A stretch of 64,000 bases of DNA from Methanococcoides methylutens. Its GTDB lineage: Archaea; Halobacteriota; Methanosarcinia; Methanosarcinales; Methanosarcinaceae. Both the position numbers and the translations under genes were made by a program. Location of the stretch: contig NZ_JRHO01000009.1 of the NCBI RefSeq assembly GCF_000765475.1, forward strand, positions 372,001 through 436,000, in the 5' to 3' direction. This document shows positions 25,928 through 47,151 of this stretch, piece by piece; positions within the stretch are counted from its first letter, which is position 1, and each line of letters starts with the position of its first letter. The notes below the pieces were generated by a model, which did not search any database, had not been told where the DNA came from, and worked only from the letters and a program-made list of their open reading frames with translations.

Positions 25928-25993
25928 TTGAACAAAACCTTAATACATTTAGCAAGATACTATATATGATACCTGTGATAAAGGTGTTTGATA

Positions 25994-26806
25994 ATGATAG
26001 AAAACGTACTATGGATTGCAGTTGCCCTGATGATATTATCCTCGATCATACCTGCAACAAGGGGAATAAAGTTCCTCACAGGTGGTGTAGGGTGGATATT
26101 CTTTTCTCTCCATTGGGCATACCAGCCGTTACATTATATTGAGATTAGTGACTATTTCAATGTAGTTCTTACCCTGGCAATTGCTGCCTTCTGCCTTTTC
26201 ATGGCACATAGTATGATACGTGAGTACAAGGGACCTTCAGAATCAGGACTTTCTCAGGATACCAATATCATTCTGATGGTTACGAGCGCAACGGCAATAG
26301 GCTCATTGTTCTACTTCCCTTTCGCGAACATTCTTTCCCTGAATCAGTGGATCATATCCAATGTGACCAATGCTACAGCTGGTTTGCTTGGACTTCTGGG
26401 TTACAATGTGGAGTCTACATGGCACATGATTACCTATAATGGTTACACCGTACAGATCATACTTGCCTGTACTGCCATCGAAAGTATTGCCCTGTTCACA
26501 GGACTGATTATCTCCATCAATGCGCCTTTCAAAAGGCTCATGTCAGCTTTCATGGTATCTGTGCCCGTAATATATATGTTGAACATCGTCAGGGATGCCT
26601 TTGTGATAGTGGCTTATGGGGACCAGTGGTTCGGAGCTGAAAGTTTTGAGATCGCCCATCATGTGGTCGCAAAGATCGGTTCAGCCATTGCACTCTTTGT
26701 GATCGCTTATGTTGTGATGCGAATATTGCCTGAACTTCTTGACATGATCGATGGGTTGTGGCAAATGACAACCCGGCAGATCAGGGACATATTGCGGAAA
26801 AGCTAA
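25994..26806 (+). CDS. artA: Archaeosortase A
   Basis: Membrane transpeptidase that processes PGF-CTERM surface proteins and allows lipid attachment. 270 residues with about eight hydrophobic segments. The exosortase/archaeosortase active-site triad is in place: C159 in LACTAIESIALF, R200 in LNIVRDAFVI, and H222/H223 in EIAHHVVAKIGSA. AAGGTG seven bases before ATG 25994 fixes the start (a TTG six bases earlier is in frame). It heads an operon with asd and pssA, the conserved link between sorting and archaetidylethanolamine-type lipids. A substrate with PGF-CTERM lies at 46055-46822. Confidence 0.96.
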   Translation: MIENVLWIAVALMILSSIIPATRGIKFLTGGVGWIFFSLHWAYQPLHYIEISDYFNVVLTLAIAAFCLFMAHSMIREYKGPSESGLSQDTNIILMVTSATAIGSLFYFPFANILSLNQWIISNVTNATAGLLGLLGYNVESTWHMITYNGYTVQIILACTAIESIALFTGLIISINAPFKRLMSAFMVSVPVIYMLNIVRDAFVIVAYGDQWFGAESFEIAHHVVAKIGSAIALFVIAYVVMRILPELLDMIDGLWQMTTRQIRDILRKS

Positions 26807-43037: not shown

Positions 43038-43169
43038 TGTTGAACCATTGCTTAGAATGATCTATTTGTTTTTTGTCAAACCCAATTTGAGTTATTTAGT
43101 TTGTGATCCAGTTGTTCAATGCTTTTAGTGACTGAACTTGGATATTTTACTTCGCTGGACTAGAAATCT

Positions 43170-43376
43170 TTACAGTTTTGATGATATCGATTCAACCATT
43201 TCTTGAGTCGGATCAATATAGACTGAAACTTTCAAAGCTGTGTGTTTAGCTTGGTAGCGGGTTTCTACAAAGCTTAAACATTCTAAAGAAATCTTTGCTA
43301 TTATAAGAGAGTTCAGATACACATCTCTATGATATCTCCAAAGTCTACCTATTGATATTTTTGGTTGAAACTACAT
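43170..43376 (-). pseudogene. Unidentified ORF or remnant with UAG as second codon
   Basis: Minus-strand frame ATG-TAG-TTT-CAA followed by 65 sense codons and TAA. The residues (GRLWRYHRDVYLNSLIIAKI, LECLSFVETRYQAKHTALKV, SVYIDPTQEM) look like real protein. There is no Shine-Dalgarno. Either UAG is read as pyrrolysine, or this is the tail of a decayed gene. No family recognised. Confidence 0.35.
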
Positions 43377-43510
43377 CAGGTTTCTACATTCCTTGATTCA
43401 TCATTCTTTTAGTTGCGGCAATATCGATGAGATTCTAATTTCAGGTACGCAATAAAAATTATGATTTTTTTTGTCCATTCAATTGTAGGAAATAGCTTAC
43501 AGATATTCGA

Positions 43511-43570
43511 TTTGACCACAATGTAGTCAAGTTGACTATAAAGTAGGGTAGTTGACCACGAAGTAAGGTA
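43511..43570. repeat. Three 20-bp direct repeats (iterons)
   Basis: Copies at 43511-43530, 43531-43550 and 43551-43570 follow T/G-T-T-G-A-C-x2-x-x-A-A-G/T-T-A-G with an exact 20-base period. The first copy also holds the inverted repeat TTGAC...GTCAA. They end 30 bases before a canonical TATA box, so they look like a regulator array or a relic replication origin. Confidence 0.6.
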
Positions 43571-43572
43571 CT

Positions 43573-43610
43573 TTATGGGCAAGCCCCATATGTTAAAAAT
43601 CTTTATATAT
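43573..43610 (+). promoter_or_regulatory. Hairpin and TATA box before the tiny ORFs
   Basis: TATGGG-CAAGC-CCCATA (about 43574-43590) is a perfect 6-bp hairpin with a five-base loop. TTTATATATTA at about 43600-43610 is a consensus archaeal TATA box, placing the transcription start close to ATG 43629. Confidence 0.55.
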
Positions 43611-43628
43611 TAGAAAGTCCTACAAAGG

Positions 43629-43709
43629 ATGCCGATTATCGTAAAGACAAAGGGCAAACTAAAGGAGCAAAAACGATACTTAAATCAAAAGGAGAAATAT
43701 CTATGGTAA
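43629..43709 (+). CDS. 26-codon leader-like ORF
   Basis: ATG 43629 lies about 23 bases after the TATA box centre, fitting a leaderless start. It encodes a very basic peptide (MPIIVKTKGKLKEQKRYLNQ then KEKYLW) ending in TAA. Its last codons overlap ATG 43703 of the next ORF, the form of a translationally coupled leader. Could be chance. Confidence 0.35.
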   Translation: MPIIVKTKGKLKEQKRYLNQKEKYLW

Positions 43710-43846
43710 GTAAGATAGAAGTTAGAGTTGTATCATCTTCACCTCTGCCACACGCATTGCATGGTTTCAGGTTAAGCGACGGAACAGTCAAGGGGAGCAA
43801 CGCACGCCCTGTTATTGACAACTCCGCCCGTAGAGTAACTGAGTGA
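43703..43846 (+). CDS. 47-residue hypothetical protein
   Basis: Starts at ATG 43703, with AGGAG eight bases upstream, and runs to TGA 43844-43846. Contains I-E-V-R-V-V-S-S-S-P-L-P-H-A-L-H-G-F-R-L-S-D-G-T-V-K. No family recognised. The frame is also open upstream for 25-30 codons, so the ORF could be the tail of a larger decayed gene. Confidence 0.4.
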   Translation: MVSKIEVRVVSSSPLPHALHGFRLSDGTVKGSNARPVIDNSARRVTE

Positions 43847-43921
43847 TAGTTGTCACTTATTTACAGGCATTGATATATCCTCCCGACATATCATTGCCAC
43901 AACTTATTTTCAAAAACGATT

Positions 43922-44281
43922 GACTTTTTTAATCTTGATGTATTCAGCGAACGAACTCTTTATCGCACCCTTGAAACGATTGGTTCAAAAAGTGAAGAAA
44001 TCATCTCAGAGACCCAGGATCAACTCTTCAAACGATATGATTTTGAACATACCAATATCAACCTTCCTATTGGGATTACTGTAGAGAAGGGTAAGCTTAA
44101 TGATCAGACACATTTCAAGAAAACGTATCATCAGGTTAACAAGAGGCTAAGAAAAGGATCTCTTGTTGTTTTCGATAAAGGTGCAAATAGTATGGCAAAT
44201 ATTGCTATGGTCAGTGCAGACGAGATGCAGTATCTAACTGCAAAGAAACTCAATAAAAGCGATGATAAGTTCAGTTATTAA
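43922..44281 (+). pseudogene. Internally deleted IS1634-type transposase remnant
   Basis: An open frame of 119 codons without start: D-F-F-N-L-D-V-F-S-E-R-T-L-Y-R-T-L-E-T-I, then YDFEHTNINLPIGITVEKGK and KRLRKGSLVVFDKGANSMAN, ending in KKLNKSDDKF. This is the middle of an IS4/IS1634-superfamily transposase as found widely in Methanosarcina. Between FEHTNI and LPIGIT the region normally carrying the first catalytic aspartate is missing, in frame. N- and C-termini are lost. Confidence 0.8.
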
Positions 44282-44320
44282 ATTTCAGTTATTAAATTTC
44301 AGTTATTAAATTTCAGTTAT
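44270..44320. repeat. 14-bp tandem repeat spanning two gene ends
   Basis: TTCAGTTATTAAAT occurs three times plus a nine-base partial copy. On the plus strand the first copy supplies the stop of the transposase remnant. On the minus strand a later copy encodes the last residues and stop (I-T-E-I-stop) of the Msr-type regulator. Likely slippage duplication of the regulator gene end. Confidence 0.8.
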
Positions 44321-45091
44321 AGGTGTTGAATCTTTTCGGTAATATTCAAAAAGCTCCTTTGTCCAGTCAACTGCACTCTGGCTTCTACATAACATAAACT
44401 TATTATCAAACTCACCATTATTTTTTAACATACTTATTAGAGAATGAACGTTATCAAATGTAAAATATAAAAATTTCATCTCTTTATTGTAAACATACAT
44501 GTTGAAGGATTTATTCTTAATAAACTTTGAAAATTCGTCTTGATATTCTGTTCTTATCTTGTCAAGTAATTCTTGAGAAACGATATAGTAAAAATCAATA
44601 TTATTCTCAAACATTTCTGTGAGTATCGAATCAAAATCAGGGTAGAGTATAGTAGTAACTGTATAAACACTTGGGGATTCTTTATATTCTGGATTATGAG
44701 ATTTATGTATGGTAAATAATTCGGTGAGAGATGGATTTATTATTTCGCAGTTCCTGAGCTGACTTATTTTTTCTAAGAGGTAGGATGGAATGAAATCAAG
44801 ATTACGACTTCCCCAGTAATCAATATCAGCGTCAAGGACTTCGCTTTTATTTAATAAAGGAATCATTGCATCAACAATAAGTTTTCCAACAGTTGTCAAT
44901 TCATAAGTGTCATTATAGTGAGTGACCAGATGATGCTCTTTCAATATCTTAATTTGTGGGAGTAATGACTGCCTTGACGTTTTCAGGGAATTGAGAATAG
45001 TATCCATTTCCTTTGCGCCATCTTCTAACAATAACAGAACAGCCTTTCTTTTCTCTGACATGAATAGAACATCAAGTAATGATTTTTTCAT
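44306..45091 (-). CDS. Msr-type methanogen transcriptional regulator (DUF1724-like)
   Basis: A 261-residue regulator: N-terminal winged helix (residues 1-75, with MDTILNSLKTSRQSLLPQIK as the recognition region), then an alpha/beta sensor region of the FilR1/DUF1724 type (SVYTVTTILYPDFDSILTEM, NIDFYYIVSQELLDKI, MYVYNKEMKFLYFTF). In Methanosarcina, Msr proteins with this architecture control methyltransferase and other catabolic genes. No target lies next to it here; neighbours are IS debris. Its 3' end is built from a tandem repeat. Confidence 0.85.
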   Translation of the reverse strand: MKKSLLDVLFMSEKRKAVLLLLEDGAKEMDTILNSLKTSRQSLLPQIKILKEHHLVTHYNDTYELTTVGKLIVDAMIPLLNKSEVLDADIDYWGSRNLDFIPSYLLEKISQLRNCEIINPSLTELFTIHKSHNPEYKESPSVYTVTTILYPDFDSILTEMFENNIDFYYIVSQELLDKIRTEYQDEFSKFIKNKSFNMYVYNKEMKFLYFTFDNVHSLISMLKNNGEFDNKFMLCRSQSAVDWTKELFEYYRKDSTPITEI

Positions 45092-45240
45092 TTTAAGTCA
45101 TCCTATATTGAATCATAGATAATATCCCATTTTGAGAGGCATCACTTATGTGTTGTTATTATTTAAGGTAAACTAACTACAATTTTAATATATTTTTTGG
45201 AAATGTGTTTATATATTCCAAATTTTCGGCTTTGTTGTCG

Positions 45241-45314
45241 CATCTCTAACCTTTCCCTTGCATGACTAATCAATGTAAAAGGCATCCCAGCTTCAGCCTT
45301 TCTTTACATATGAT
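45241..45314 (-). pseudogene. Third possibly Cas1-like C-terminal fragment
   Basis: Minus strand gives H-M, a stop, then R-K-A-E-A-G-M-P-F-T-L-I-S-H-A-R-E-R-L-E-M, aligning with LHYMKQNA...PFTLNAHVRERLE of the other two fragments. About 25 codons survive. More diverged than the other two, so an independent, older remnant. Confidence 0.35.
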
Positions 45315-45494
45315 TCAGTTCTTTAATTTTTAGTAAGATATATGGCTCTACATTATTATTCGTCCTTAGTATATAAGACAAATTTAATGCCGTTAAATTT
45401 TAATTAGGCATCAAATATTTTGATACAAATACGTTAAATAGGGAAGTAACCTACTAGGTCTAGTGGGTTGGGGAGTAACTCATCAAATGGAGAC

Positions 45495-45619
45495 TCTGTA
45501 GAAAACCTCGCGATATTTACATCAATATTCTGAAATCAGATTTCAGTATTATCTCGGGTAATACATATGTCAATAATCTGGATTTGGATTGTTGTCCGAA
45601 TATTGAGGATTTCTACAGA
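45495..45619. mobile_element. MITE-like element with inverted termini
   Basis: TCTGTAGAAAACCTC at 45495-45509 and its near-complement GAGGATTTCTACAGA at 45605-45619 bound 125 bases. The similarity continues inward through ATATT on both sides. Within lies a second inverted repeat CTGAAAT-CAG-ATTTCAG. There is no ORF. Likely a non-autonomous derivative of an IS; no clear target-site duplication is visible. Confidence 0.6.
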
Positions 45620-46054
45620 TCCCAATTTTGAGTAAGGGCCGACCACGAAAATCCTTTCTTTTATCTTTTTTCAAACTTCTCTACTAAGCCTTATATCCTA
45701 CATTTCCAATGGTTTTATATCTTAATTCCAATTATTGATACATTCCAATTGTTAAAGCAACTAAAGACAATTTTAAATAATATGAATTCCCTGAGAGGAA
45801 ACTGAGTTCTTTAAGGGTTACCCCCCACCCCCCAAATTTCCAACCGTTTTTTGCCCTTATGGAACTCACACGTTACCATTCTTTTCATAATTTAGTTCAA
45901 TCTATTGTATGTGCACTCTGCTTTTTAAAATGAAATTAATGATAAAAATAAAGGAATAGATTAATAAGAGTTCTTTAAGGACGAAGCCAATTAATCACCT
46001 CGTTAATCTCTATGTCATTTTTTAGGCACAAATGTCGAATATTAAGGAAGTTAT

Positions 46055-46822
46055 GTGACGAAATATAAATATACAATATGTTTATTGACATTTTTAGCCA
46101 TTATTTTTTCTTTGACAGCAACCGCAACAGCCGCACCATACACTGTTGCAGACATCATCACCGATAGTAAAAATCACACTACCCTTGAAGCAGAACCGGA
46201 TGCAGTCAATTTGACTGAAACCCCTTCAGGTGAAGGCAATTTCACTGTATTTACTCCAACCGATGATGCCTTTGCAGCACTTCCGGAAGGCACTGTTGAT
46301 GCTTTACTTGCTGATCCACAGGGTGACCTGGACGATATATTGCTCTATCATGTTCTAGATGGCAGAGTTCTGTCAACAGATCTTTCAGACGGAATGACTG
46401 CAACCACATTATTGGGCAAGGACTTTCAGGTCACAATAAATGATGATGGAATCTTCATCAACGATGCTGAAGTCATTATTGTTGACATTCAGGTTGATAA
46501 TGGTGTTGTCCATGTGATAGATGCTATACTGATACCTACTGAACCTAAAGATCGCGGTTCTTCTGGAGGTACTGGTAAAGCGGTAATCATACCACTTACT
46601 GAAGAACCTGAAATACCTTAGGAACCCGAAGTTGCTGAAGAGCCCGAAGAAGAGTCAACTCCAGCTCTTGATGATGGAACTACAGTAATCCCTGAAGATG
46701 AAGTTGTTGAAAATGTTGATGAACCGGAAGATGATTCGGGTGTAATTCCTGGATTTAGTATACTTTCAGCAATTGGTATTCTTTCAGTAGTCTACTTAAT
46801 TTACAGAAGGAAGGATCAATAA
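46055..46822 (+). CDS. Fasciclin-domain PGF-CTERM surface protein with an in-frame UAG
   Basis: GTG 46055 (AAGGAAG upstream) begins a signal peptide (about 1-27, ending ATATAA), then one FAS1 adhesion domain (about 30-175, with FTVFTPTDDAFAALPEG and GVVHVIDAILIP). An acidic linker follows in which codon 189 is TAG (46619-46621). The same frame continues for 66 codons through more E-E-P-E-type linker to P-G-F-S-I-L-S-A-I-G-I-L-S-V-V-Y-L-I-Y-R-R-K and TAA 46820-46822. That tail is a PGF-CTERM anchor (PGF at 232-234). With pyrrolysine at UAG the protein is 255 residues and cell-surface anchored; with termination it is 188 residues and secreted. Confidence 0.85.
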
Positions 46823-46841
46823 GCGATCCTTCTGCTTTTTT
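46810..46841 (+). terminator. Terminator after the full-length fasciclin frame
   Basis: GAAGGATC (46810-46817) pairs with GATCCTTC (46825-46832) and is followed by TGC and T6. The TAA at 46820-46822 is inside the loop, so the transcript ends exactly where the read-through frame ends, not at the UAG. Confidence 0.8.
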
Positions 46842-47151
46842 ATTTTCAATCTACTTGGTTCTTTTTTGAACCCCGGGTTGGAAATTCAGATAATTATACT
46901 ATCTTATTCAATTATTAGATCAAAACTACCTCTCCAGGGTTGCTAGCTGAAAATCCTTCTATTTATCTTTCAAAGTACTAAGTATCAAATGTTCCTCATG
47001 AGGGAGTTTACGAACGTGTTTTAAATGATTGTGGAGTCTGGTCTGAGTTCCATCCTTCTTTTCATTGTTTTTACTGATGCATAGCACTGTTTGTATTGGT
47101 TTTTTATTACAGGATTTTTAAGATGCTAGTTTTTGAAAAAAAGAAAATAGA
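46842..47151. other. Gene-free intergenic stretch
   Basis: 310 bases with scattered stops in all frames. I see no gene, RNA or repeat, apart from the downstream flank of the convergent siroheme reductase gene. Confidence 0.5.

Follow-up and report, generated by a model that had tools for sequence, protein, structure and literature searches.

The window analysed here, a stretch of 64,000 nucleotides from Methanococcoides methylutens, contains a reading frame that opens with a GTG at 46055, predicts a signal peptide followed by a fasciclin domain, and meets a TAG at its codon 189. In the same frame, 66 further codons stay open beyond the TAG, up to a TAA at positions 46820 to 46822, as an earlier note on this DNA had described. 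The positions of these elements are collected in the table below, together with the gene of archaeosortase A, which that note had correctly placed in the same window.

Features of the fasciclin gene, and of the archaeosortase A gene, in the window
Feature	Positions	Strand	Basis
Fasciclin surface-protein gene, with the TAG taken as read through, 255 codons then TAA	46055..46822	+	Reading frame; codon score unbroken across the TAG
Signal peptide (MTKYKYTICLLTFLAIIFSLTATATA)	46055..46132	+	Judged by eye; same type in the G007 relative
Fasciclin (FAS1) domain, residues 48-161	46196..46537	+	Pfam PF02469, 108 bits against a cut-off of 22
GSSGG-AVIIP-acidic linker, containing the TAG	46556..46747	+	Cassette also present in further surface proteins of the genus
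In-frame TAG, codon 189, predicted pyrrolysine	46619..46621	+	Sequence; sense use of TAG in other genes of this genome and genus
C-terminal sorting tail of PGF-CTERM type: PGF motif, hydrophobic stretch, RRK end	46748..46819	+	NCBIfam Heimdall-CTERM
Intrinsic-type terminator that overlaps the TAA, with a T run behind it	46809..46833	+	9-bp stem; terminator search and fold z
Archaeosortase A, expected processor of PGF-CTERM tails	25988..26806	+	TIGR04125, 282 bits against a cut-off of 75

With its signal peptide, folded domain, acidic linker and a tail made of a PGF motif, a hydrophobic stretch and a basic end, the predicted protein resembles the PGF-CTERM proteins that depend on archaeosortase A. 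The tail itself, PGFSILSAIGILSVVYLIYRRKDQ, had been called a complete PGF-CTERM tail; this holds for its layout, and the tail also passes the cut-off of the NCBIfam Heimdall-CTERM model, which is similar to PGF-CTERM (24.8 versus 24 bits). However, it stays below the cut-off of the Pfam PGF-CTERM model (12.4 versus 18.8 bits), and the protein differs from known proteins of this type both in that respect and in having a TAG in its linker. The homologous tails found in the genus exceed the cut-off of neither model.

The only terminator found between positions 45900 and 47200 overlaps the TAA and not the TAG (fold z = -2.6), in agreement with the earlier description, and the transcript unit thus takes in the tail. 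Folding and an Rfam search at the site revealed no structured element 3' of the TAG (fold z = -0.6, no Rfam match), and in particular no PYLIS-like structure. Such an absence is to be expected if the TAG is read without any special signal; the PYLIS is itself dispensable in mtmB, where its replacement merely reduced the amount of full-length product (PMC2933860).

Five other tails of the genus can be aligned with linker and tail together, over a span that opens upstream of the TAG and reaches the final residues, at 37-46% identity and with E-values from 9e-19 to 3e-13, the low-complexity filters being off. The carriers of this cassette are beta-helix/NosD-like and Ig-like surface proteins, and all the homologous copies are uninterrupted. 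Related and intact coding sequence is thus found on both sides of the TAG, and the codon-usage score concurs: it amounts to 29 bits over the 66 codons that follow the TAG, against 59 bits over the 188 codons that precede it, so that the coding bias per codon is at least as strong after the TAG as before. By these measures, what follows the TAG is more than chance and is a genuine tail of the anchoring type. The gene has the appearance of a FAS1 domain fused to the anchor cassette that the genus already possesses. We also considered a division into two separate genes, and rejected it: the tail lacks a signal peptide, the cassette spans the linker upstream of the TAG, and the terminator comes after the TAA. 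A decayed relative of the cassette exists in genome G006 (L170:11748-12160), as the remnant of a surface protein with a PGF tail that has lost its start and has a TAA in its linker.

The earlier suggestion that the TAG arose from a GAG by a single change is plausible. However, the TAG sits in a stretch of 6-8 residues that is missing from the closest homologous cassettes, and consequently the change from GAG to TAG cannot be shown.

No orthologue of the fasciclin gene was found among ten congeners, and these genomes provide no comparison at codon 189, where the earlier note had looked to orthologues; what can be compared are the cassette homologues, which have no stop. Taken together, the missing orthologue and the uninterrupted cassettes mean that nothing shows selection for a TAG at this place. 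The best match in a congener is a domain of 66% identity in a two-domain protein of genome G007. This protein and a relative in a Methanolobus bin are the nearest FAS1 relatives (66% identity); both carry a pair of FAS1 domains as well as a FIMAH domain, and lack an anchor tail. The best FAS1 relatives outside the methanogens, at 55-70% identity, are mostly found in bins of Bacteroidota, which suggests either a transfer between the groups or mis-binned contigs.

In genomes G001 and G007, the positions that correspond to about 43040 and to 47050-47116 of the window are adjacent, and the fasciclin gene is missing from its syntenic place. The extra segment of about 4 kb, at 43044-47115, contains the fasciclin gene, a FilR1-like regulator (44306-45091) and short broken frames; it may be either a gain here or a loss in the two relatives. 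Inverted arms of 23 nucleotides, at 43058 and 47132, flank the gene in the manner of a mobile element. However, the sequence that holds the right arm is shared with G001, and the arms are therefore no evidence of a transposon.

The genome has the means to read UAG as pyrrolysine. Its pylS (423 bits against a cut-off of 178) and a tRNA-Pyl with a CUA anticodon lie in the same contig, adjoined by the frames of pylB, pylC and pylD, which were named by order and adjacency, and for PylB also by a radical SAM match. The presence of this pylTSBCD cluster supports the decoding of UAG as pyrrolysine that had been presumed for this organism, and removes the objection that pylT or pylS might be lacking. 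On the other side, the release factor aRF1 retains its NIKS and YxCxxxF motifs, so that termination at UAG should still be possible. In M. acetivorans, a reporter gene with a UAG gave 20-30% of full-length product, and mostly terminated product; the UAG of mtmB led to little termination (PMC2933860).

One gene of the cluster itself appears to end in a TAG: pylB (L151:8457-9590) stops directly before the start of pylC (L151:7373-8455). The pylB of G006 also ends in TAG, and a published account says so of M. burtonii and of two Methanosarcina species (PMC2933860). Read as pyrrolysine, the TAG of pylB would add 42 residues to the protein, and through such an extension pyrrolysine could possibly feed back on the pathway that makes it. 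Two further observations concern the methylamine methyltransferases. A homologue of MtmB (L145:1486-2967, C5:118412-119761 in the genome) has no in-frame TAG, and is possibly of the MtqB type, which acts on tetramethylammonium and choline in Methanococcoides methylutens Q3c (PMC13044021). Copies of mtmB are broken at the ends of contigs C1, C3 and C10 (L146-L150), probably where near-identical copies collapsed in assembly.

The use of stop codons was counted in a sample of 384 kb, composed of the 64-kb window and sixteen stretches of 20 kb, or 15% of the draft genome, using a simple and crude gene caller based on codon usage and retaining ORFs above 40 bits. The 244 well-scored ORFs end in TAA 121 times, in TGA 116 times, and in TAG only 7 times. 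With the same method, genomes of the same order in which no pylS passes the cut-off have TAG shares of 15.0% (G039, n=100), 18.2% (G012, n=22) and 23.1% (G037, n=26), the last two being small samples. The share is 0-3% in three congeners that have pylS (G001, G006 and G010), and 1.1% in G020, a genome of the same family where pylS is present.

Six of the seven TAGs lie inside continuous genes: the fasciclin gene, a serpin, two histidine kinases, MtbB and a subunit similar to those of F420 dehydrogenases. The Pfam match of the serpin spans the TAG and covers positions 2-370 of a profile of 370; in both kinases the TAG falls within the HATPase_c domain, and in the F420 dehydrogenase-like gene, of FrhB/FpoF type, within the FrhB_FdhB_C domain. 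The TAG of MtbB stands in the motif DGI-TAG-IGVGDP, which we take to be the pyrrolysine context of that enzyme. The seventh TAG is that of pylB, which alone remains among the 244 ORFs and is the only TAG of the 384-kb sample that is credible as a stop. Two other TAG-ended ORFs, L157:15105 and L162:9440, have low scores and no Pfam match, and were taken as chance ORFs. Outside this genome, in-frame TAGs were also seen in G006, in a VWA domain protein (L177:13643-15271) and a HerA-like helicase (L178:7748-9034). To judge from these counts, the members of this genus effectively use TAG as a sense codon.

The FrhB/FpoF-like gene (C9:442558-443760 in this genome; L252-L261), which also carries a YHS domain, allows a closer look at the region that follows a TAG. 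Six species have TAG at its codon 356, namely this one and five whose genes match it at 90-97% identity up to the end; four others have TAT (Tyr) there. Pairwise comparison of the six TAG species shows, downstream of the TAG, 164 codon differences that are synonymous and 35 that are not, and 1416 and 313 upstream of it; the ratios are thus 4.7 and 4.5, computed on pairs that are not independent, and they do not constitute a test of significance. The equality of the ratios means that purifying selection acts on the region after the TAG just as it does on the region before, and the protein is a good candidate for the direct detection of pyrrolysine. The TAG of the serpin, on the other hand, exists in this species alone, the closest relatives having CAG or GAG at this codon. 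Together, the two patterns indicate that TAG is gained and lost as other sense codons are, being one base away from its neighbours.

It is thus natural to read codon 189 of the fasciclin gene as a pyrrolysine codon like the others, a reading to which we assign a probability of roughly 0.78. In this genome of the Methanosarcinaceae, where TAG has almost gone out of use for termination, the acquisition of a TAG by point change, within an acidic linker of low complexity, would be close to neutral. The main product would be a secreted protein of 255 residues, with a fasciclin domain and pyrrolysine at position 189, whose PGF-type tail archaeosortase A would process, leaving the protein anchored at the cell surface. 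Some points speak against a reading as sense only, namely the intact motifs of aRF1, the TAG that appears to end pylB, the 20-30% readthrough of the reporter (PMC2933860) and the missing orthologue among the ten congeners, and some secreted short form, ended at UAG, may be produced.

Such a short form is at the centre of the best of the competing explanations, according to which UAG is mostly read as pyrrolysine while a fraction of translation stops there and releases some 188-residue protein, with no regulatory role. The intact aRF1 and the partial readthrough known in M. acetivorans (PMC2933860) speak for it; the purifying selection that persists after the TAG of the FrhB-like gene in six species suggests an efficient readthrough, however, and we hold this mixture to be unlikely.

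The earlier note went further, and saw in the UAG the point where it is decided whether the protein is secreted or anchored. Competition between aRF1 and Pyl-tRNA at codon 189 would yield the anchored form during growth on methylamines and the secreted form otherwise, in a ratio useful to the cell; if this were true, the state of the cell surface would follow the supply of pyrrolysine, hence the use of methylamines. The position of the TAG is suggestive, since it lies between domain and anchor and a truncation would release a folded domain, and the FAS1 relatives of 66% identity in other genomes do without an anchor tail; moreover, aRF1 keeps its motifs, and a UAG does yield both products in M. 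acetivorans (PMC2933860). However, the same decoding of TAG must serve the serpin, the two kinases and the F420 dehydrogenase-like subunit, where a truncation would be useless. A switch also presupposes a UAG that still works as a stop, whereas TAG is hardly a stop in the genus. This TAG is not conserved, the other copies of the cassette lack it, and folding and Rfam revealed no structural element behind it. Because the organism hardly uses UAG as a stop, a special on/off switch for anchoring is not needed, and since nothing in the sequence points to a ratio of two forms that depends on supply, we consider it quite improbable.

A third possibility is a nonsense mutation in a decaying gene, whose anchored form is beginning to be lost. 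The gene does belong to a segment absent from the syntenic place of close congeners, and in G006 the related PGF-tail gene has decayed to a fragment that contains a TAA; against this, the 66 codons after the TAG have kept their coding bias and a complete tail with neither stop nor frameshift, and the mutation would have produced TAG, the sole stop codon that this genome reads as sense, which makes decay very unlikely. An error of sequencing or assembly at position 46619, conceivable in a single draft genome of 15 contigs, has hardly any probability, since a different gene of this genome has an in-frame TAG that six species share, and such codons are thus real as a class.

The preferred reading, codon 189 as pyrrolysine, agrees with what is said of related archaea: a "Pyl code", described in Science in 2025, is reportedly used by archaea including Methanococcoides burtonii, which read all their TAG codons as pyrrolysine. 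As in those archaea, TAG stops are almost absent here and in-frame TAGs are many in ordinary genes; contrary to them, the evidence here comes from sequence only, and pylB still ends with TAG. The fasciclin gene shares with MtmB, MtbB and MttB an in-frame TAG and, as predicted here, its reading as pyrrolysine by the same pylTSBCD system, but the pyrrolysine of these enzymes is catalytic and conserved, while that predicted here stands in a variable linker. Another parallel is Thg1, the tRNA-His guanylyltransferase of M. acetivorans, in which pyrrolysine was found and is not essential for activity (PMC2933860). In both cases a single in-frame TAG occurs in a gene unlinked to methylamine use, in an organism that has the pyl genes; contrary to Thg1, the fasciclin gene predicts a secreted surface protein and has its TAG in a linker.

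A candidate surface protein would thus be added to the few pyrrolysine proteins that have no part in methylamine metabolism. Independent evidence in the sequences, above all the TAG of the F420 dehydrogenase-like gene kept in six species, indicates that the genus treats TAG as sense. Such proteins are truncated and deprived of their anchors when a gene caller takes TAG as a stop, and inventories of the surface proteins of these methanogens need to be made with another code.
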